The position numbers were made by a program, and so were the translations under genes. Below are positions 3-19,715 of a stretch of DNA of 21,119 nucleotides, in pieces. How positions within the stretch are numbered: the stretch's first letter is position 1; each line of letters starts with the position of its first letter. The notes beneath the pieces were generated by a model. It worked only from the letters and a program-made list of their open reading frames with translations, had not been told where the DNA came from and ran no database searches. This stretch comes from a virus, in the IMG/VR virus record IMGVR_UViG_3300032287_002173, positions 1 through 21,119 of that record; one strand, 5' to 3'.

Positions 3-266
3 TCATTTGCTGGCCTCGTGCTGGGCGTGCCACATACGGCACACGGCGGGGTTAGGGTGATAAACAAACGCTTCGGGGGTTAAATCGTATCCACCCCGCG
101 AATTTAAATTTAGTTGTTGGTAGTGAGCCTTTTTAGGCTCAGTTATTACTGCCGTGTTACCGTTTCGGCGTAAGTCGTTATAGTGATAAGCATCGGACGG
201 GGTGGGATTTGAACCCACGGTACAATTACCTGATTCGATTTGTTTGATTATGATTGGGAGCTTCAT
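3..266 (-). CDS. doubtful ORF running through the att site
   Basis: An 87-codon open frame begins at an ATG at 266, crosses the tRNA 3' fragment (194-230) and ends with TGA at 3-5. I do not recognise the product. The first third translates tRNA sequence, giving the telltale GSNPTPSD string, so the upper part is not ordinary coding sequence. The lower part, about 60 residues, has a plausible protein-like composition (for example PEAFVYHPNPAVCRMWHAQHE), but no good start codon lies in frame below the tRNA. It could be a gene cut and re-joined by integration, or chance. Low confidence that it is expressed as written. Confidence 0.2.
   Translation of the reverse strand: MKLPIIIKQIESGNCTVGSNPTPSDAYHYNDLRRNGNTAVITEPKKAHYQQLNLNSRGGYDLTPEAFVYHPNPAVCRMWHAQHEASK
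124..141. repeat. perfect 7-bp inverted repeat
   Basis: TGAGCCT, a TTTT loop and AGGCTCA form a perfect hairpin between the att site and the window edge. No T-tract follows on either strand, so it is a poor intrinsic terminator. It may be a weak terminator, a recombinase arm element or chance. Confidence 0.4.
194..240 (-). other. att: attachment site: 3' fragment of a class II tRNA gene
   Basis: Read on the minus strand this is the 3' part of a tRNA. It has a 4-bp variable-arm hairpin GGTA-ATTG-TACC (230-219), T-stem GTGGG (218-214), T-loop TTCAAAT (213-207), T-stem CCCAC (206-202), acceptor strand CCCGTCC (201-195) and discriminator G (194); no CCA is encoded. A long variable arm plus G73 fits tRNA-Ser best. 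No 5' half (acceptor, D-arm) lies upstream; instead the integrase gene starts 70 bases away. Many tyrosine integrases use tRNA 3' ends, so this is most simply the att core. The left-hand limit of the core at about 240 is a guess. Confidence 0.8.
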
Positions 267-310: not shown

Positions 311-1411
311 ATGGCGTATTCTTACCAGAAACGCGGCAGCCCTTGGTTCTTTATTCGTTTTAAAGACCCGACTGGAAAATGGCGTAGTAAAAGCACCCGC
401 TACCGAATCGACAATACGCTGCATCGCGCAAAGGCAACGGCCGAGGCCGCTCGAATTGGAGTCAACGAAAAGCGAAAAGATTGTGGCCACGAATGGGTTG
501 ATGATTTGATCGAAAATCATCCCGTTTCCCCTCTGACAAAAGTTTATTACAGAAACTGCTGGCGTCATCTTGCGAGGTTTATTAATGAAAAAAGCATAAG
601 TCTGCAAGCGTTTTCTGCAAATGATTGTGAAATTTATTTGCGATGGCGCCAAAGCCTGCCCCGCACCTCTGGCGGTAAGGCTGGACGGAACCAAGCGTGC
701 CAAGATTTGAAGATTATCAAATGGATTCACAGGCAAGGTAGATTGCTTGGAAAAATGGATTCTGTCGCCCTTCTGGATTATCGAATTAAAAGGGGCCCGA
801 TTAGCCGAGTTAAACCCGTCTTTTCGGACAATGAAATTAAAATCACCCGGAAGGCTCTTGCCGTGGAGGGCGTGCCCGAATGGATGCGAATCAGCTTTGA
901 GATCGCCTTGGCTACGGGGTGCAGATTGCGTGAGACGCAGATTCCTTTGGATTGCGTGGACTTGAAGAACCGTGTGCTTACCTTCCCCTGCCCCAAAGGT
1001 GGAATCGGCAAATCCTTTAGTATCCCCATCCCAGCCGCTATCGAACCCATGCTCGCCAAGATGCAGGCCGAGGGACGCGAGATGACCTGCGAAGTCCCCC
1101 GCACGCGAGCCTCGCTTTGCTGGCGTCGCCTGCTCGATATATGCGGGCTTAAACGCCACTGTTTTCACTCCCTGCGTGTAACTCGTGTAACCAGGCTTCG
1201 GCTTTCAGGCTGTTCTCAATCTGTCGCCATGAGACTCGTGAATCACTCTTCGACGTTAGTGCACGAGCTTTACCAACGGCACTGCGTGGACGATCTCCGC
1301 GATGCAGTGAACTTAGGCCAGTCGTCCGTATCAGCCGCCATTGATCAAAGTCAGACGGAATTACCTTACCCGCGATCAGTGGGAATCCAGGCATCGCCTG
1401 CATTTGCTTAA
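311..1411 (+). CDS. int: tyrosine recombinase, phage integrase
   Basis: This 366-residue protein should catalyse site-specific integration and excision at the adjacent tRNA. The N-terminus (about 1-35, with PWFFIRFKDPTGKW) resembles an arm-type DNA-binding domain, followed by a SAM-like core-binding region (about 60-150). The catalytic domain shows the expected set: R205 in ATGCRLRE, K229 in the beta-hairpin, H286-S-L-R289, H312 and the nucleophile Y321 in ELYQRH. Length is usual for phage integrases. It is the only large plus-strand gene here and lies 70 bases from the tRNA fragment, the classic int-att arrangement. No strong Shine-Dalgarno precedes the ATG. The last ~85 codons overlap, antiparallel, the excisionase-like gene 1149-1517; the residues after Y321 (about 45) are a tail without known motifs. 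Confidence 0.93.
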   Translation: MAYSYQKRGSPWFFIRFKDPTGKWRSKSTRYRIDNTLHRAKATAEAARIGVNEKRKDCGHEWVDDLIENHPVSPLTKVYYRNCWRHLARFINEKSISLQAFSANDCEIYLRWRQSLPRTSGGKAGRNQACQDLKIIKWIHRQGRLLGKMDSVALLDYRIKRGPISRVKPVFSDNEIKITRKALAVEGVPEWMRISFEIALATGCRLRETQIPLDCVDLKNRVLTFPCPKGGIGKSFSIPIPAAIEPMLAKMQAEGREMTCEVPRTRASLCWRRLLDICGLKRHCFHSLRVTRVTRLRLSGCSQSVAMRLVNHSSTLVHELYQRHCVDDLRDAVNLGQSSVSAAIDQSQTELPYPRSVGIQASPAFA

Positions 1412-1517
1412 TTCTGACGTAACCTAACCCGTAAGCGGCGCCTAGTTGGCGAAGGGAAAGAGCTTGGTTCTGCTGGCGCAGTTTCATGGCAATATCGTTG
1501 AGGCGCCCCAAGCTCAT
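1149..1517 (-). CDS. excisionase-like winged-helix DNA-binding protein
   Basis: A 122-residue frame. Residues about 21-62 look like the small MerR/AlpA-type fold seen in excisionases: SLRQLGAAYGLGYVRIKQMQ forms a helix-turn-helix and GFPLIAGKVIPSDFDQW resembles the wing followed by a final helix. It starts 6 bases after the stop of the minus-strand RHH gene, so the two are probably co-transcribed. Its 3' part runs antiparallel through the last 263 bases of int; residues after about 66 may be a tail shaped by that overlap. A role in excision, that is recombination directionality, is inferred from fold and place. It could instead be a repressor or antirepressor. Confidence 0.6.
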   Translation of the reverse strand: MSLGRLNDIAMKLRQQNQALSLRQLGAAYGLGYVRIKQMQAMPGFPLIAGKVIPSDFDQWRLIRTTGLSSLHRGDRPRSAVGKARALTSKSDSRVSWRQIENSLKAEAWLHELHAGSENSGV

Positions 1518-1523
1518 AAGTAT

Positions 1524-1685
1524 CTAGCTTTGTTCTCCCGATGCCCTCGCGAGCAGTTGCGTAATGAGTTGAGAAAGTGAAATGCGACGGGCAGCGGCCA
1601 GTTTTTGTGATGCTTTTTTCAACGCAACGGGCAAAACGATGTTCGTCTTTTCCGCTTTTAAACCGTTGAGTGGACGACGAGCCAT
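1524..1685 (-). CDS. small ribbon-helix-helix (Arc/CopG-type) repressor, minus strand
   Basis: A 53-residue protein starting MARRPLNGLKAEK and ending ASGEQS. The middle fits the RHH fold: a beta strand KTNIVLPVALKKA, helix A KASQKLAAARR and helix B SLSQLITQLLARA. Such proteins are obligate dimers that insert a beta ribbon in the DNA major groove. The start is the ATG at 1685 with AAGG five bases upstream. An alternative longer frame here (1408-1722) lacks any such pattern. It is divergent from the RHH gene at 1790 and followed at once by the excisionase-like gene. The repeated ATACGC half-sites around its start codon suggest autoregulation. It is likely half of a lysogeny switch. Confidence 0.78.
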   Translation of the reverse strand: MARRPLNGLKAEKTNIVLPVALKKASQKLAAARRISLSQLITQLLARASGEQS

Positions 1686-1713
1686 ACGCCTTGCATACGC
1701 ACAGACGGCGTAT
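1683..1713. promoter_or_regulatory. putative RHH operator next to the minus-strand RHH gene
   Basis: ATACGC occurs at 1684-1689 and again at 1695-1700, and the latter pairs with GCGTAT at 1708-1713 across a 7-base spacer. The same half-site reappears at 1759-1777. Repeated half-sites between divergent small RHH genes are the normal form of an RHH operator; which protein binds is not shown by the sequence. Confidence 0.55.
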
Positions 1714-1758
1714 TAGCAACACATTTTTTTGGGCATTAGCTTTTTAACTTATATTTGA

Positions 1759-1777
1759 ATGCGTATTTATTACGCAT
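1759..1777. promoter_or_regulatory. palindromic operator next to the plus-strand RHH gene
   Basis: ATGCGTA-TTTAT-TACGCAT is a perfect 7-bp inverted repeat ending 13 bases before the ATG at 1790. It contains the GCGTA/TACGC half-site also found at 1683-1713. A protein bound here would block ribosome access or the promoter of the plus-strand RHH gene. No convincing -35/-10 pair could be fixed in the AT-rich stretch 1721-1758. Confidence 0.6.
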
Positions 1778-1789
1778 ACAATCCTCCCT

Positions 1790-1933
1790 ATGAAGAAGGC
1801 TAAAACGAACCTTACCATCGACCCAAAAGTTAAGCGGAACGGTGAGCGTCTTGCCAAAAAAAGTGGATTATCCCTTTCGGCATATATCACCACGTTGCTG
1901 GTTAAAGAGCTAGCTAAAGAAAATAAACGCTAA
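1790..1933 (+). CDS. small ribbon-helix-helix repressor, plus strand
   Basis: A 47-residue protein starting MKKAKTNLTIDPKVKR. The RHH pattern is clear: strand TNLTIDPKV, helix A KRNGERLAKKSG, then LSLSAYITTLLVKEL, a typical CopG/Arc-like second helix beginning with Ser. It is divergent from the 53-residue RHH gene. Only about 100 bases separate the start codons, with two inverted-repeat operators. The bases before the ATG read CCTCCCT and give no Shine-Dalgarno, so translation may be weak or leaderless. Its stop overlaps by three bases the stop of the convergent gene 1930-2229. Likely a repressor or antirepressor in the lysogeny decision; RHH antitoxin is an alternative, but no toxin gene is adjacent. 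Confidence 0.8.
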   Translation: MKKAKTNLTIDPKVKRNGERLAKKSGLSLSAYITTLLVKELAKENKR

Positions 1934-2229
1934 GATTTAGGCGATTTGCCTGTGGTTAGCCTGTAGTGCGGTACCTTGCGGCAGTGGCCTAGAAACTTCT
2001 TTCCCTTTGCATCAACGTGAGGCAATCGGATCACATAACTTTTTCTTTCGGCTCTGCCGTCTTTAACCAAGTGCGCTAAAAGTTTATTGGCATAATTTGC
2101 CGACTTACCCCACAGCTTAGCGATCTGGTTTTTAGTTAGCCAGCCGTCTGGCACTACCTCCTGCCGATGCCCGGCGACATACTCCGTCAGAACGGTCGCC
2201 CAATCTGACTTTATACTGGATACCGCCAT
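1930..2229 (-). CDS. winged helix-turn-helix protein
   Basis: A 99-residue protein starting MAVSSIKSDW. Residues about 31-62 (LTKNQIAKLWGKSANYANKLLAHL) read as a helix-turn-helix with a recognition helix, followed by KDGRAERKSYVIRL as a possible wing. The start at 2229 is favoured over the open frame reaching 2370 because GGGAGGAG lies immediately upstream and the upstream residues are Arg-rich read-through of the neighbouring gene. It overlaps the end of the metallophosphoesterase gene by 19 bases and is the last gene of the minus-strand run. A transcription regulator is likely; target unknown. Confidence 0.7.
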   Translation of the reverse strand: MAVSSIKSDWATVLTEYVAGHRQEVVPDGWLTKNQIAKLWGKSANYANKLLAHLVKDGRAERKSYVIRLPHVDAKGKKFLGHCRKVPHYRLTTGKSPKS

Positions 2230-2954
2230 ACTCCTCCCACGGGCGATAGAACGTTCACCGTGCATCCTTGCCCGCCTTCTACGTACTCGCCCCAGGCTAC
2301 TCCGTGCTGCCACCTGGTAACGGATCGCTGGCGCCGGGCGTAGTGCATGCTGGGAATATCGGCTAGGCAACCAATCGACCAGCCCACGGGTGCGCCAATG
2401 CTACGGCCTGCGATCCTATCCACCCGGTGCAAGTGGCCCATGACGACAGGCTTTCTAACCATCTCTACGTGGTCGCGCACGGCTGATTCTGAAAACATAA
2501 ACCCGTGGCCGAATGCTGTTCCGCCAAGATCGCGCCAGCCTTTCTCTATGTCGTAAGGGATGTACTGCGCCTTTAGATCCTTGCACATGTTATATATCTC
2601 GGACTTTGCAGACGTACAGCAATGGGCCACAATCGCGCTAGGCGAGTATTGTAGAGCTGTTAGGCGGTGCTCATGGTTTCCCTCAAATATGTAGCGTGGC
2701 GCAAGTTCTCGAACGAAATTAAGGCCAGCATCAAAGTCCTCGCGGATGGATGCAGTGCGTTCGGGAGAATCTGGATCTTTCCTTGCGCTGCCCATCAGCC
2801 CGGACAGATCGACAAAATCGCCTAGGTGGAGAGTCATGTCTGGATTCCAACGGCGTTTCATTTCCAGCGCAGCCTTACACGCGGCTGCGTTCGCTAGGTG
2901 TCCGTGGCTGCAGCTAACGGCTAGCCAACGCTTCCACTTGCGAATGACTTTCAT
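2211..2954 (-). CDS. calcineurin-like metallophosphoesterase with altered first metal ligand
   Basis: A 247-residue protein with the metallophosphoesterase motif series: SCSHGH (14-19) in place of the usual DxH, GDFVD (45-49), GNHEHR (92-97), H150 in GHGF, and GHLH (173-176). The family uses two metal ions to cleave phosphomonoesters or phosphodiesters, often nucleic acids or nucleotides. The codon at residue 15 is TGC, so the first Asp is Cys; the other ligands are kept. Its ATG overlaps the stop of the MazG-like gene (ATGA). Phages often carry such enzymes downstream of lysis or replication genes; the substrate is not predictable. Confidence 0.82.
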   Translation of the reverse strand: MKVIRKWKRWLAVSCSHGHLANAAACKAALEMKRRWNPDMTLHLGDFVDLSGLMGSARKDPDSPERTASIREDFDAGLNFVRELAPRYIFEGNHEHRLTALQYSPSAIVAHCCTSAKSEIYNMCKDLKAQYIPYDIEKGWRDLGGTAFGHGFMFSESAVRDHVEMVRKPVVMGHLHRVDRIAGRSIGAPVGWSIGCLADIPSMHYARRQRSVTRWQHGVAWGEYVEGGQGCTVNVLSPVGGVWRYPV

Positions 2955-14379: not shown

Positions 14380-15471
14380 TTACACAAAGGCGTCGTGACT
14401 ATCGGTGGCCAGCTTTTCATACAGTGCGACCTTGGCGTGATTGGCGCATTCGTGCAGGCAACTGACGCCAGGGTTAAATGTTTTATGCCATTTACGCACT
14501 TCGTCACTAAACCAAGCCTGCTTAAACGATTGCTCTTTAATCGACCCAATTCGGCCGTGATCGCTGTACGCAGTGTTGTGGCACGCGTAGATATTGAGAT
14601 CCGCACCTACCACGCAAACGGCCTGAGCGTAAAGACAGCGATGGAATGGCCTAACGGGCGACTTGCTTGGACTATCCAGATCGTAGGTCGTGTTAATGGT
14701 GAAATCTGAATCGCAAAAAGATTGGCATTCGGCCAGTTGCTCCCGCACCCTGGTCGCAATCGTGTTGTGATATTCTTTAAAGTTCTGCACGTACACGGGA
14801 GAGAAGCGGACATTACTTACGCCTGAATCCTTGAGCTGTTTAGCGAACGGAACTAGCCCCTCGTAATTGTAACGGGTAATAATAAAGTTAATCCCAAGAT
14901 CGCAGCTCTCTGTTTTCGTGTTGGAAAAGTTTTTAATATTCTGCATCACGGAATCAAACGATCTATCAGGCACGTTACGGCTCGACGCCATCTGCTCCGC
15001 GCTTGTGTAGTCCATCGAAATCCTAACCCACTTTGCCTTGCCCAATACTTCAGCCCTTTCTCCCGCAAGCAGTTGGCCGTTGGTAATAATGGATAGATCC
15101 AGCCCAGACGAAACTGTTTTAGTCATAATCTCGACAATGTCTTTATGCAGCAAAGGCTCTCCGCCACCGCTGAAGGTGACGGCTTTTGTTCCCATGTTTG
15201 AAAGATCCTCTATTAGTTCTAGTGCCTTATCTCGTGGCATCACGTCCCGCTCGTTCATGCTGGTGTGCATGCCAGCCTGTAGGTGCAAATCAGGCCGATC
15301 CTTGGGCCGAGTTGTGCCATCTGAATAAACGCAAAAACGGCAGGCGTGATTGCAGATATTTGTCGGCTTGATCCGCACGTAGATGGGAGCGGTAATAATA
15401 TCGTCGCGAAAGCTGGCAATCTTTTCTGGAAATGAAAAGATTTTGTAATCGCTGTATTTATTTTGTTTCAT
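14380..15471 (-). CDS. radical SAM enzyme with SPASM-like C-terminal domain
   Basis: A 363-residue protein starting MKQNKYSDYKIFSF at 15471, chosen because this ATG follows the upstream TAA by two bases; the longer open frame to 15564 runs inside the methyltransferase gene. The radical SAM iron-sulfur motif CNHACRFC (C40, C44, C47) is intact, followed by GGGEP (102-106) and a TIM-barrel pattern. C279, C286, C297, C338 and C342 suggest an extra iron-sulfur cluster in a SPASM/twitch domain, used by enzymes acting on peptides, proteins or sugars. In this cassette a glycan- or sugar-modifying step is the best guess; peptide modification is possible. Confidence 0.85.
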   Translation of the reverse strand: MKQNKYSDYKIFSFPEKIASFRDDIITAPIYVRIKPTNICNHACRFCVYSDGTTRPKDRPDLHLQAGMHTSMNERDVMPRDKALELIEDLSNMGTKAVTFSGGGEPLLHKDIVEIMTKTVSSGLDLSIITNGQLLAGERAEVLGKAKWVRISMDYTSAEQMASSRNVPDRSFDSVMQNIKNFSNTKTESCDLGINFIITRYNYEGLVPFAKQLKDSGVSNVRFSPVYVQNFKEYHNTIATRVREQLAECQSFCDSDFTINTTYDLDSPSKSPVRPFHRCLYAQAVCVVGADLNIYACHNTAYSDHGRIGSIKEQSFKQAWFSDEVRKWHKTFNPGVSCLHECANHAKVALYEKLATDSHDAFV

Positions 15472-15473
15472 TA

Positions 15474-16166
15474 TTATGCGCTGATAAGCCCTGGCAGATT
15501 TAACGGATGTTTTGATCCAACTGCTATTTTTCTTGGCGTTTGTGGGGCGCAGAAATCGAACCAATCAAATTGCTTTACCGGCACGTATGCGTTTCCAAAT
15601 GTTTTTCTAATTCCCGACATCATCGTGTCATAAGTAGGTCGGGGTGATTTTCTTGAAATAGAAGTGGTTGGGTGATCGTAATCGTATGATTCGATCCAGT
15701 CCTGACCAGTTGCGCTTTCCAAGTAATCAAATACAACTATCGGAGCGATGCGTGCTAGGCCATTAAGAATTCCAAACTCGTTTAAAGAATCGTTGGCATG
15801 ATAATATACGCCCCATAAAAAAACCATATCGGCTTTAATATTTAGGAATTCTTGTAATCCTAAGCAGTTTTCGATGTTCCCAAGAATTGTACTTACCCGA
15901 TTATCTGAGATAAAACGCTTTCTAATAACACTTAGATTAGCTTCTCGGCCATCGTTCACTATTACGCGGCTAGCGCCTTGAGCTAACAACCATTCCGTCT
16001 GATCTCCTATCCCGGCCCCTGGTTCAAAGATTGTTTTGCCAGCTATTTGTAAACCCGTATTTTGCATAACTTCCCATCGCAATCGATTCAGTGTTTGTTG
16101 CCGTCCGTCATGCATATTGGTTAAACCAAAGACTACGTTTTGTTCATCTGGTGTTAGATTATTCAT
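15474..16166 (-). CDS. class I SAM-dependent methyltransferase
   Basis: A 230-residue protein. Motif I is FEPGAGIGDQTEWLL (47-61), and D72 in VNDGREANL is the acidic residue that would bind the ribose of SAM. LWGVYYHANDSLNEFGIL (about 112-130) is the motif IV/V area. No DNA-methylase catalytic motif (NPPY, PC) is seen, so a small molecule, sugar or lipid acceptor is more likely than DNA. Expressed between the transketolase pair and the radical SAM gene; the leader is A-rich. Confidence 0.78.
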   Translation of the reverse strand: MNNLTPDEQNVVFGLTNMHDGRQQTLNRLRWEVMQNTGLQIAGKTIFEPGAGIGDQTEWLLAQGASRVIVNDGREANLSVIRKRFISDNRVSTILGNIENCLGLQEFLNIKADMVFLWGVYYHANDSLNEFGILNGLARIAPIVVFDYLESATGQDWIESYDYDHPTTSISRKSPRPTYDTMMSGIRKTFGNAYVPVKQFDWFDFCAPQTPRKIAVGSKHPLNLPGLISA

Positions 16167-16178
16167 TTTTTTTCTTTC

Positions 16179-16634
16179 TTATTTTAGCAGAATAAATGCA
16201 GGCCATTCATCGGGTTTGGCAATCGCCAATGGGATTTCCTCGGCGTTTTGAGGATAAATGCCTCTTAACCCATCAATAGTTGCGACAATACGTTGTGCAT
16301 TGTGCGACTGATGCGTAAGACCGTGGACTTCGTCCTGCCAGCCTGCAAGCAGGACAGGAGCACGCTGCAACGAGACATCTAGTTTAATTTGCTCGTATGC
16401 TCGTTCTAAAATAAATGGCGTAAATGAATAAACAATCGGTCTTAGACCTGCCAGCGCCATGCCTGATGCAATTCCGACTAATGATTGTTCTGCAGTACCA
16501 AGATTAAAATATCGTTTTGGAAACTTGTTGGCAAAGGTTGAAAACAATCCTCCTCCAACATCGCCTATCAGCAATACTATGCGCTCATCGCTTTCGGCCA
16601 GAGCAGTCACCGCCTGGGCAAAAGGCCACCTCAT
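16179..16634 (-). CDS. transketolase-like subunit, pyrimidine-binding domain only
   Basis: A 151-residue protein matching the second ThDP-binding (Pyr) domain of transketolase: YFNLGTAEQSLVGIASGMALAG with the catalytic Glu E49 in the GTAEQ motif, then IVYSFTPFILERAYEQIKLDV and DEVHGLTHQSHNAQ. It ends at AFILLK, where the Pyr domain normally ends. The usual transketolase C-terminal domain (a further ~130 residues) is absent and nothing downstream encodes it. It overlaps the N-subunit by four bases (ATGA), so the two chains are probably made together and form the active site at their interface. Confidence 0.85.
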   Translation of the reverse strand: MRWPFAQAVTALAESDERIVLLIGDVGGGLFSTFANKFPKRYFNLGTAEQSLVGIASGMALAGLRPIVYSFTPFILERAYEQIKLDVSLQRAPVLLAGWQDEVHGLTHQSHNAQRIVATIDGLRGIYPQNAEEIPLAIAKPDEWPAFILLK

Positions 16635-17272
16635 TTTAGATCCTCAATCATGGTCTGAAATTCATCGTCGGTAATTGTGTGAGTGTGCCAACTTTCATTT
16701 TCCTCGAGCATCCGTACCCCTGCGCCTCGTTTTGTCTTATGTATTTTAACTGGATAGATATGAGGGATAATGTCGTCTGTATTGCATATTGTGCGGCAAG
16801 ATCCTTGCCAGCCGTTAGAATCAATGTGAACAAATAGATGCTCTTCAAGTTGAAGTGATTTTGCGAGATTTAGTGATTCCCAAGTTGTTCCTTCCAGAGT
16901 TTCGCCATCACCCAGCAAAACAAAGACGCGATCATTTTTCCCAGAGATTTTGTTTGCAAGCGCCCACCCAACCGCAATAGGAAGTCCGTGACCGAGTGAC
17001 CCTGTTGTCGCTGGTATTCCTTCTTTTAGGTTTCTATATGGATGCGGATGCGATATATCTGGCTTGTATCCCAGTTCTTCTAAGATTGCGTAATAAGATG
17101 GAGCGGCATGACCCTTTGACAAAATAAAAATATCCGAGCCATGCCTCATTTGCTCAAATATTTCCAGCATAATTGGAAGTGCTGAAAGGGATCCAGAGGC
17201 GTGGCGATGCTGCTGCTTGTAATCGATTTCTATTGTTCGATAAATTAGTTTTTTGCGATTTGTAAGGTTCAC
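16631..17272 (-). CDS. transketolase-like subunit, ThDP diphosphate-binding domain
   Basis: A 213-residue protein corresponding to the N-terminal half of transketolase. LSKGHA (51-56), GSLGHGLPIAVG (91-102) and the ThDP motif GDGETLEGTTWE (121-132) followed by DSNGWQG (151-157) are present, so Mg-ThDP binding looks intact. Together with the 151-residue partner it would transfer a two-carbon unit, or act on a related keto compound. The usual helical insert is short and the end lies near residue 213 against about 270-280 in split transketolases. Its start overlaps the stop of the GT9-like gene. Confidence 0.87.
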   Translation of the reverse strand: MNLTNRKKLIYRTIEIDYKQQHRHASGSLSALPIMLEIFEQMRHGSDIFILSKGHAAPSYYAILEELGYKPDISHPHPYRNLKEGIPATTGSLGHGLPIAVGWALANKISGKNDRVFVLLGDGETLEGTTWESLNLAKSLQLEEHLFVHIDSNGWQGSCRTICNTDDIIPHIYPVKIHKTKRGAGVRMLEENESWHTHTITDDEFQTMIEDLK

Positions 17273-18033
17273 AATATTCCCTCATTTTCTAGTATATGAA
17301 TTGCATGATATGCGCTTCTCGCCATCTGCCCGCGTTTAGTAAGAATCACGTTCTCGGTATCTCCACAAAGCAGGTGAAAGGCATTTTTGTTGTGAACGTT
17401 AAGGCACGGCCAGCTCGGACCGGTGGATGTTCCGATAACAGCTTTTGCCTTGGCAGCCGTTGCCCCTATCCAGGTCACATTCTTGCCATCAAATGCCTGG
17501 CATAATCCAGTAGCGACTGTGCTAATTACGCGATGACCCTTGCTAACTAGCTTAGATATTAAGTTGCGAAAATCATCCGGGTTAAAGTTTGTAAATTGAC
17601 CAGACAGCCCTGGCGAATTTATCACGACAATGTCGCAATCTGGCGCCATCGGAATGAAAGAATCTAAGGCCGGATAGTCAAACAGGAGGTCATCGACTTT
17701 GCCGATCGGATTCTTTACGCACATCCTGCTGGCCAGTTCCTCAAACCAACATAGATGAAATTCGGCAAAGTTTAATTTATCTGGGTGACTCTCCCAATAT
17801 CCGCCTGCATTACGCCAAGAATCAATGCTATTAGCCGGCGCTTGATCGATAGGCCTAATGTGTAGGCGTAAAGACATGTCGCTTCGCAACGCATCAATTT
17901 CTTCAAACCTACACAGCTCAGGGTTATAATAGTGCGTGATCTCAAGATCTGGATTTTGCAGGCATAGCCGACGTAGAAAGTTTAACTGCACTAGGTTGTC
18001 GCCCAAACGCAGTGCGTTGTGCGTGTGAATCAC
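17269..18033 (-). CDS. GT-B (GT9/heptosyltransferase-like) glycosyltransferase
   Basis: A 254-residue protein. The opening IHTHNALRLGDNLVQLNFLRRLCLQNP resembles the GDxL loop and first helix of GT9 transferases. CDIVVINSPGLSGQFTNFNPDDFRNLISKLVSKGHRVI (about 133-170) looks like the start of a nucleotide-binding Rossmann half and AKAVIGTSTGPSWPCLNV like the conserved G-S/T-G-P-S site for the sugar nucleotide. It is shorter than usual GT9 enzymes (about 330-350 residues). It overlaps the GT2 fusion and the transketolase gene by four bases each. Donor and acceptor unknown. Confidence 0.65.
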   Translation of the reverse strand: MIHTHNALRLGDNLVQLNFLRRLCLQNPDLEITHYYNPELCRFEEIDALRSDMSLRLHIRPIDQAPANSIDSWRNAGGYWESHPDKLNFAEFHLCWFEELASRMCVKNPIGKVDDLLFDYPALDSFIPMAPDCDIVVINSPGLSGQFTNFNPDDFRNLISKLVSKGHRVISTVATGLCQAFDGKNVTWIGATAAKAKAVIGTSTGPSWPCLNVHNKNAFHLLCGDTENVILTKRGQMARSAYHAIHILENEGIL

Positions 18034-19715
18034 GGGTTCCTCTCCTTAAATATCTTTTCGCCCAGCTCGTAGTTTTCCTTGGCATTGTGGCGTTTAAATT
18101 CCGCATCCTGCGCTGCGCCCGTGAATAGCGGATTATTGTGAGTGAATACGATGTCCTTGGCAGGAATGATCACGCCGTCGTATGCAGCCCTCTTGGAAAA
18201 TTCGTTATCTGAGAAAATGCCAGAGCATGCGTCATATTCAGCGGCAAACATGGCGCCCTGGTCTTGCAGTCGTGCTTTAGTCAGGATTGCCATGCACAGC
18301 AGATCGTCTTTGCGGTGGCCATCGGAAATCGCCAGTACCTTCGGCTTGCTGGTATCGCCAATCTTATCGCTGATTATCTTGTCCCAATGCAGCGGAGGAT
18401 CCCAATCGTCAGAGCCTTGAATGATAATCTCCCCACGGGCTACTTCGGCCGCCCTGTTCCAAGCGGCAATACATCCACCTTTACCTTTAACGATTCCCCA
18501 ATTTTTAAGCATATCGGCTTTAGGATCGTCATCGTCGACTGAGTAGATCCACTCAACTGACGCTGGATCTGCCGCCTTTTTCATCCACAAGATGCGGGCG
18601 TTAATCGCTTCCTGTGGGCGGCCTCGCGTGGCGTGGCAGACCGTAATCTTAACTGGCTTCTGCGCCCGCCACATGTTCTCAATCTTTTCTGCCTCGGCCG
18701 TATCGCCCACGGCTTTACAGGCCGCAAGGTATAGATCGATGCACTCGAAGTCGTACACGGTGCGCTGGGCGTTCCAGATCTTTACGCCCGGATCGGGCTG
18801 TACCATGGCCGATTTCAGCAAGTGATAAGCCTGTAACCACGCACCCACGCTGGCCTCTTCCCTGGCTAGAAAGTAAATCGCTTCCCTGCGCCCAGGGTTC
18901 ATTTGATGGGCCTTTTGGTACAGGCCGATCCTGACGGTGCGATCCTGCGTAGCTGTGGCCTGATTGCAGGCGGCCTCGTAAGCCAGCGTTGCTTCTTGCC
19001 CCGGCCAGACGGCCGCAACGTGCGACCACGGTTCCGATTCAACCCTCCTATTTCCTAAGAAAAGTTCCTGCTGGTAGTAGTACGCATACTTGCCTGCTTC
19101 GCTTAACTGGCCTTGCAAGATGCGGAGATTCCGATCGGCGCTGTTTGGCTTATATCCGCCAGGGTGATGCTCTACCCATACGGCCTGCTCGCCCACAGAT
19201 TCTAGCCCGGCATTAGGCAACAGCGCCTCATGCACGGCATAGTGCCACTTTCCAGACCATACGCCGTCTATACGCCTTACCATCCGTTCCCTTACAGGGG
19301 CGAGTTTGGCGTTTAAAACCGCATATACGCCCGCGTAGATGCCGAGCTTGGGATTCTGCTCAAACGCTTCTACGCCCCTTTTAAATGCGTTTTTGAGGTC
19401 TTTATGGGGCAAGTCATCGCAATCCACCCATACCGCATAGTCTCCAGTGCAGGCATCCAGTGCGGTGTTGCGGGCAGCGGCAAAGTTATCAACATGGGGC
19501 CAGCTCGCCCCTGCCGGTGCATTTTTATATTCGACTATCTTGGCGCCTGACTTCTCCGCTATCGCCCGCGTGCCGTCGTCAGGCCGAGCGCCCTGCGCCA
19601 TGCAAACCACTAGCTCATCGCAGTATGGTAAAAATGCAGTTACAAAACGCTGTATAAATTGCGCTTCATGCCCGGCGATTGCGTAGATGGAGATTTTAGG
19701 ATTTCGAGTGGCCAC
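18030..19715 (-). CDS. bifunctional GT-A glycosyltransferase: two GT2-like domains joined by a helical repeat region
   Basis: A 561-residue protein. Domain 1 (1-~190) is GT2-like: ISIYAIAGHEAQFIQRF, then WPHVDNFAAARNTAL and the metal/nucleotide motif WVDCDDLP (96-103). The middle (~240-350) is helical with TPR-like spacing (ATLAYEAACNQATATQDRTV, YQKAHQMNPGRREAIYFLAR). Domain 2 (~355-561) begins KITVCHATRGRPQEAINAR, with SVDDDDPK (392-399) and GSDDWDPPLHWD (434-445). Each half could transfer a sugar. It begins two bases from the head-completion gene stop, so expression is tied to the head genes. Likely target: host or virion surface glycan. Confidence 0.85.
   Translation of the reverse strand: MATRNPKISIYAIAGHEAQFIQRFVTAFLPYCDELVVCMAQGARPDDGTRAIAEKSGAKIVEYKNAPAGASWPHVDNFAAARNTALDACTGDYAVWVDCDDLPHKDLKNAFKRGVEAFEQNPKLGIYAGVYAVLNAKLAPVRERMVRRIDGVWSGKWHYAVHEALLPNAGLESVGEQAVWVEHHPGGYKPNSADRNLRILQGQLSEAGKYAYYYQQELFLGNRRVESEPWSHVAAVWPGQEATLAYEAACNQATATQDRTVRIGLYQKAHQMNPGRREAIYFLAREEASVGAWLQAYHLLKSAMVQPDPGVKIWNAQRTVYDFECIDLYLAACKAVGDTAEAEKIENMWRAQKPVKITVCHATRGRPQEAINARILWMKKAADPASVEWIYSVDDDDPKADMLKNWGIVKGKGGCIAAWNRAAEVARGEIIIQGSDDWDPPLHWDKIISDKIGDTSKPKVLAISDGHRKDDLLCMAILTKARLQDQGAMFAAEYDACSGIFSDNEFSKRAAYDGVIIPAKDIVFTHNNPLFTGAAQDAEFKRHNAKENYELGEKIFKERNP

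Follow-up and report, generated by a model that had tools for sequence, protein, structure and literature searches.

Two tiny divergent genes, RHH1 and RHH2, whose products are predicted to adopt the ribbon-helix-helix (RHH) fold, form together with the operator boxes between them what is likely to be the primary lysogeny/immunity switch of the family of uncultured phages described here, in a place where one would expect a CI/Cro pair of the lambda type. This function is inferred, and there are no binding, expression or immunity data. Directly registered were the genes, the prediction of their fold, the arrays of boxes and their overlap with promoters, exchange of the cassette between relatives, its loss jointly with the integrase gene and the lack of an HTH_3 or S24 repressor. 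The window, i.e. the whole stretch of DNA analysed, is an entire IMG/VR record of 21,119 bases and covers only part of a phage whose length is about 34 kb. From left to right it contains the attP core, int on the plus strand, an xis-like ORF and RHH1 on the minus strand, a 104-bp gap and RHH2 on the plus strand, beyond which ORF146, a metallophosphoesterase gene, lysis and structural genes follow, nearly all of them on the minus strand. The main features are:

3..266, minus strand: first ORF of the minus-strand lytic operon, with the attP core at its start
194..220, minus strand: probable attP core, corresponding to the 3' end of a gene for tRNA, probably tRNA-Ser
311..1411, plus strand: tyrosine integrase (int), PHROG integrase match with E 1.7e-27
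1149..1517, minus strand: xis-like helix-turn-helix ORF of 122 aa, downstream of RHH1, overlapping the int 3' end on the opposite strand
1524..1685, minus strand: RHH1, 53-aa ribbon-helix-helix protein, first gene of the RHH1-xis transcript, proposed lytic-side (Cro-like) regulator
1685..1712: left operator array with 11-bp pitch (TACGCC 1685-1690, TACGCA 1696-1701, GGCGTA 1707-1712), overlapping the RHH1 start codon and the -10-like element
1686-1789: intergenic gap RHH1/RHH2, 104 bp
1710..1718, minus strand: TGCTAATAC, extended -10-like element of the RHH1-xis promoter with a weak -35, based on sequence and alignment
1755..1782, plus strand: RHH2 promoter TTGAAT-16-TACAAT, consensus match, position conserved in the alignment
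1760..1776: right operator array with 11-bp pitch (TGCGTA 1760-1765, TACGCA 1771-1776), inside the RHH2 promoter spacer
1790..1933, plus strand: RHH2, 47-aa ribbon-helix-helix protein, proposed lysogeny repressor
1930..2370, minus strand: ORF146, which possibly encodes a winged-helix protein, bounds the exchanged cassette on the right and is not specific to lysogeny

The initial annotation, made from the sequence alone, had claimed two divergent tiny RHH ORFs of 53 and 47 residues separated by about 100 bases, one of them followed by an excisionase-like gene and then by int on the opposite strand. Both claims held, the former with exact coordinates and a gap of 104 bp. The stop codon of RHH1 (1524) lies 6 bases ahead of the ATG of the xis-like ORF, in which an invariant AY..Y, FP, G.V.P..F..W pattern is retained at 31% identity. 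Profile searches gave no family match for this ORF, and its naming as a helix-turn-helix protein or excisionase rests on the pattern and position. It overlaps int tail to tail on the opposite strand by about 260 bases (1149-1411), and its C-terminal half might be non-functional. A PDB match suggesting a leucine-rich protein was discarded, since it rests on the stretch antisense to int. In complete relatives replication genes are located on the late-gene strand and start just across attP from int. ORF146 overlaps the end of the phosphoesterase gene and is very variable (about 30–90% identity), yet it is present in nearly all relatives, including those without int.

Both RHH genes are conserved in about 60 loci and have pN/pS ratios (0.21 for RHH1 and 0.13 for RHH2) that indicate purifying selection. 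The RHH fold, supposed earlier, is now predicted by structure modelling. Among profile matches, RHH2 corresponds to the Arc-like repressor family of PHROG (E 4.9e-5) and weakly to CopG, and RHH1 gave weak matches to VapB26 and a CopG-family protein. AlphaFold2 models show an extended N-terminus followed by two helices (pLDDT 87 for RHH2 and 72 for RHH1), and Foldseek lists obtained for both proteins consist mostly of Arc, CopG, PutA, AmrZ and other RHH chains. The Foldseek E-values were above 0.05, but poor values are expected at such short length; besides, the RHH beta strand forms only in the dimer, and the models contain none. The trait of the superfamily, a strand and two helices within about 45–55 residues with a conserved small or polar turn before helix 2, is met. 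Curated Pfam cut-offs for RHH families were not reached (RHH_5 17.2 bits versus 26; DUF6364 17.7 versus 27.3), which weakens only a claim to a named Pfam family, as short divergent members often miss the cut-off. Both genes can be regarded as selected ones, with an RHH fold that remains a prediction of the model.

For the gap between them five GCGTAT/ATACGC half-sites forming two inverted pairs had been proposed. This was confirmed only in part: four of the five are exact (1684, 1695, 1708 and 1761), the one at 1770-1775 reads TTACGC with one mismatch, and inverted pairs are not the best description. Alignment of 49 distinct intergenic regions revealed as the conserved unit a 6-bp pseudo-palindromic NRCGYN box repeated with 11-bp pitch, beginning at 1685, 1696 and 1707 on the left and at 1760 and 1771 on the right. 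Nine homologous intergenic regions contain 23 pairs of boxes at this distance versus 1.7 expected, with a maximum of 8 in 20,000 random placements; these regions represent different sublineages but are related, and hence not fully independent. Over the whole window GCGTAT is not enriched (15 found versus 10.5 expected) and single 11-bp pairs stay at the chance level (9 versus 7.2). What exceeds chance is the clustering of boxes and conservation of this clustering, not the whole-window counts. The 11-bp boxes are consistent with sequence-specific binding of dimers to adjacent sites, which is inferred in the absence of binding data.

The consensus promoter scan did not report the element assigned to RHH1-xis. 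For RHH2 the start of transcription is expected at about the ATG codon, from which one may infer, as a possibility, that its mRNA is leaderless. In the distant locus L310 the RHH2 promoter reads TTGACA-17-TAAAAT and its spacer is again filled by boxes. A box search in the window and its relatives detected no further operator at the early lytic operon, the arrays being found only between RHH1 and RHH2. Pairs of boxes 11 bp apart in about ten relatives were considered as a second operator and rejected, as they sit in a homologous glycosyltransferase coding region, where protein conservation explains them. In the window itself two ATACGC sites 11 bp apart (19259/19270, within 19259-19275) occur inside a glycosyltransferase-like gene and are probably a coding coincidence.

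An indication of function comes from comparison of relatives. In six of them (L015, L021, L023, L024, L041 and L053), designated type B, int is about 89–93% identical to that of the window, RHH1 about 51–59% and RHH2 about 43–48% over matched parts, and the boxes have GCGC cores and no GCGTA. Types of RHH1, RHH2 and operator agree in 57 of 60 loci; the remaining three are two loci with ambiguous operators and one locus of type C (L050), where a different RHH1 and left boxes are combined with an A-like RHH2. In all six B-versus-A comparisons flanking homology of about 84–92% ends at the xis start and returns at ORF146. On the int tree type B is scattered, with six changes, of which strong branch support makes at least four unavoidable; the phosphoesterase tree has five changes, every one of them forced. 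The hallmark of immunity cassettes, joint exchange of regulators with their operators among phages that are alike in other respects, is present, and there is little doubt that RHH1-operator-RHH2, with its cargo, moves as a block in the way such cassettes do, which is a signature of heteroimmune exchange. This exchange, as well as the joint loss with int described below, goes beyond what the initial annotation could see. Beta-strand residues K-N-V and K-N-T of type A go with TAC half-boxes, and Q-N-Y and R-N-Y of type B with TGC half-boxes. A simple code relating the strand to the box was not accepted, as a by-eye count over other lineages gave only a weak trend, consistent with such a code but not showing it. 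Directly after RHH2 a 160-aa signal-peptide-like gene of unknown function is found in type B (L021:7658-8140) and in L310 (4207-4692); it has no family, defence or toxin match.

As anticipated, the same arrangement, int-xis-RHH1-RHH2, recurs in related phages (about 60 loci), also beside integrases of only 52–54% identity. Integrases of L310, L323 and L214 are only 51–54% identical to that of the window; the first two keep int-xis-RHH1-boxes-RHH2, and L214 lacks RHH1 but has int, xis and RHH2, with boxes located where xis starts. Two terminally redundant, complete genomes (L065 and L067) lost by deletion the int 3' end or most of int together with xis, RHH1 and RHH2; natural deletions in L066 and L239 likewise removed part of int with the same three genes, and in L238 another gene stands in place of the int-xis-RHH region. 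The exception is L056, where int is kept and xis and the RHH genes are absent. As a separate observation, a 168-aa gene of unknown function occupies the place of attP-int-xis-RHH1-RHH2 in L186 (7079-7585), L188, L207 and L238. The reported absence of a CI/Cro-like HTH pair held and was extended to relatives: no HTH_3 match over the cut-off was found in 24 records, several of which are complete terminally redundant relatives, and no Peptidase_S24 in 17 records. An HTH_11-like protein and ORF146, which might also bind DNA, were rejected as lysogeny regulators, since their genes persist in genomes where int and the RHH genes are gone. Searches of isolated phages with int, the phosphoesterase, RHH2 and type-B RHH1 returned no relatives.

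Taken together, these data support a two-RHH lysogeny switch, in which DNA binding and repression are inferred. Dimers of RHH2 would bind the 11-bp-spaced boxes cooperatively and shut the leftward RHH1-xis promoter, so that excision and minus-strand lytic transcription would be blocked; at higher concentration RHH2 would shut its own promoter as well, occupying its -35/-10 spacer. RHH1, produced together with xis, would bind boxes of the same region and turn RHH2 off, leading to lytic commitment, and mutual repression via neighbouring boxes would make the switch bistable. Inheritance and exchange of the cassette as a unit are ascribed to the requirement that proteins and boxes match, and such exchange would create separate immunity groups. 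The roles of both proteins, the promoter shut by each of them and immunity itself are equally inferred. RHH2 is probably the repressor: it is alone on its transcript or has cargo after it, is more conserved and persists without RHH1 in L214. Genes of lysogenic conversion are known to follow a repressor often. RHH1, read with xis in the lytic direction, probably acts on the lytic side. Against a primary switch one may put the sub-cut-off Pfam scores, the Foldseek E-values above 0.05, int without RHH genes in L056 and the failure to find an integrated copy. Moreover, without an operator at the early lytic operon the route by which RHH2 would silence it remains unexplained.

Some of this may be related to the location of attP. 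The core differs at a single position from tRNA-Ser(CGA) in a genome of Spartobacteria, and the temperate-phage trait of integrase plus attP is met. The core coincides with the start of the first gene in the lytic operon; an SD-like sequence (50 of 53) and CATAAT (49 of 53) are located on its int side, and the core itself carries GTG (48 of 53). Integration, as can be inferred, would remove the leader of this gene and cut any RHH1-xis read-through; disconnection of the lytic operon by integration would explain why no operator is seen there. A bolder reading, which is no more than possible, is a two-layer switch without a classical repressor, where integration physically disconnects the lytic operon from its promoters. 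The RHH1-xis transcript points through attP into the lytic operon, and in this reading the RHH pair would decide only on xis production, i.e. re-connection, and on immunity against incoming circles. Caution is needed, as CATAAT might rather be part of the region bound by the integrase, L310 and L323 do not retain the SD-like sequence, and attP is missing from the deletion derivatives L065-L067, which nevertheless persist.

Among rival explanations the one that survives best, and cannot be discounted, is that the pair controls only xis and its own level, lysogeny being kept by integration itself or by an unrecognised regulator elsewhere. It is favoured by attP at the first lytic gene start with the SD-like sequence and CATAAT on the int side, by the early operon devoid of operators and by the presence of other possible DNA-binding genes (the HTH_11 protein and ORF146). 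However, the latter are retained even where int and the RHH genes have been lost, and exchange of specificity cassettes suggests selection for immunity differences, not just xis control. It is unlikely that the switch is the same but the roles are reversed, with RHH1 as the lysogeny repressor and RHH2 on the lytic side: orientation alone cannot assign roles and each gene has boxes at its own promoter, but RHH1 is read with xis in the direction of lytic genes, and RHH2 precedes the cargo gene, is under stronger selection and persists where RHH1 is lost (L214). Least credible is that one of the proteins is a type II antitoxin or plasmid-type copy regulator without a role in lysogeny, as suggested by weak similarity to CcdA, RHH_5 and VapB26 and by the fact that RHH antitoxins are common, since there is no adjacent toxin-like partner (an xis-like gene follows RHH1, and nothing or the signal-peptide-like gene follows RHH2), and gain or loss goes with int, xis and the other RHH gene.

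A primary switch built of two RHH proteins thus remains the preferred reading, and no description of such a switch was found in the open-access literature searched. Its precedents are P22 immI and SSV1 F55; without a counterpart in this literature are the divergent double-RHH cassette, allelic specificities and its apparent position as the primary switch of tailed phages. The initial annotation compared the pair with immI of P22, which comprises Arc (53 aa), Mnt (82 aa) and Ant (PMC7549136). Two small RHH repressors in the lytic/lysogenic balance, one of 53 residues like Arc, are indeed common to both, but close likeness in role is not supported: in P22 Arc and Mnt control Ant, an antirepressor, alongside c2, the repressor of immC (PMC7549136), whereas here neither Ant nor a CI-type repressor was found, RHH1 is followed by xis, and int is the neighbour of the cassette. 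F55 of SSV1, a 55-aa RHH lysogeny repressor of an archaeal virus, has repeated 11-nt sites in the promoters it represses, its own included (PMC9608457), and a single tiny RHH protein is reported to maintain lysogeny with sites of this kind; SSV1, however, is an archaeal fusellovirus with one RHH protein, no divergent partner and sites in several promoters. RHH dimers of RelB bind repeated hexads with an essential spacing between adjacent dimers (PMC2812701), but RelB is an antitoxin, and sequence and spacing of its hexads differ. Switches of the lambda CI/Cro type have divergent regulators, a shared operator region, exchangeable immunity cassettes and cargo after the repressor. All this is paralleled here, with RHH in place of HTH, without HTH_3 or S24, and with xis rather than replication genes following the gene on the Cro side. 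Mycobacteriophages such as BPs, with their integration-dependent immunity (PMC4557955), are similar in that a control-region gene contains attP and integration changes expression, but there attP is in the repressor gene, while in the window it is located where the first gene of the lytic operon starts.

Calls of lysogeny in metagenomes lean on CI-like HTH repressors. If the proposed switch is real, temperate phages controlled by only two genes, each about 50 codons long and hence shorter than common cut-offs, would be missed or called virulent, and RHH proteins may serve as primary lysogeny regulators of tailed phages rather than as accessories as in P22. Natural A, B and C specificity alleles with matched operators make specificity and heteroimmunity directly testable with very small parts. 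A regulatory model would also be obtained for phages with likely Verrucomicrobia hosts.

Assignment of this phage family to Verrucomicrobia is itself only probable. The first genome scan with the int alignment gave no match; a second scan registered, on a free-form contig of a Verrucomicrobia MAG, an integrase of 55% identity together with the same attP core. Besides this contig, 289 sampled Verrucomicrobia genomes yielded no copy of this phage family, and none was seen integrated. One chromosome of these 289 (G118) carries an integrated element (L448:9105-12361) whose integrase is located beside tRNA-Ala; it also contains a RecT operon, two divergent RHH-like genes of 52 and 95 aa, a third RHH-like gene and an M78 (ImmA/IrrE-like) peptidase just under the cut-off. 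Its layout is similar, but the element is a different one, and divergent RHH pairs could possibly be used more widely in Verrucomicrobia. Within the structural region of the window there is also a cargo-like block (14380-19715), where, by sequence impression, radical SAM-like, methyltransferase-like and glycosyltransferase-like ORFs occur together with two transketolase-like halves.
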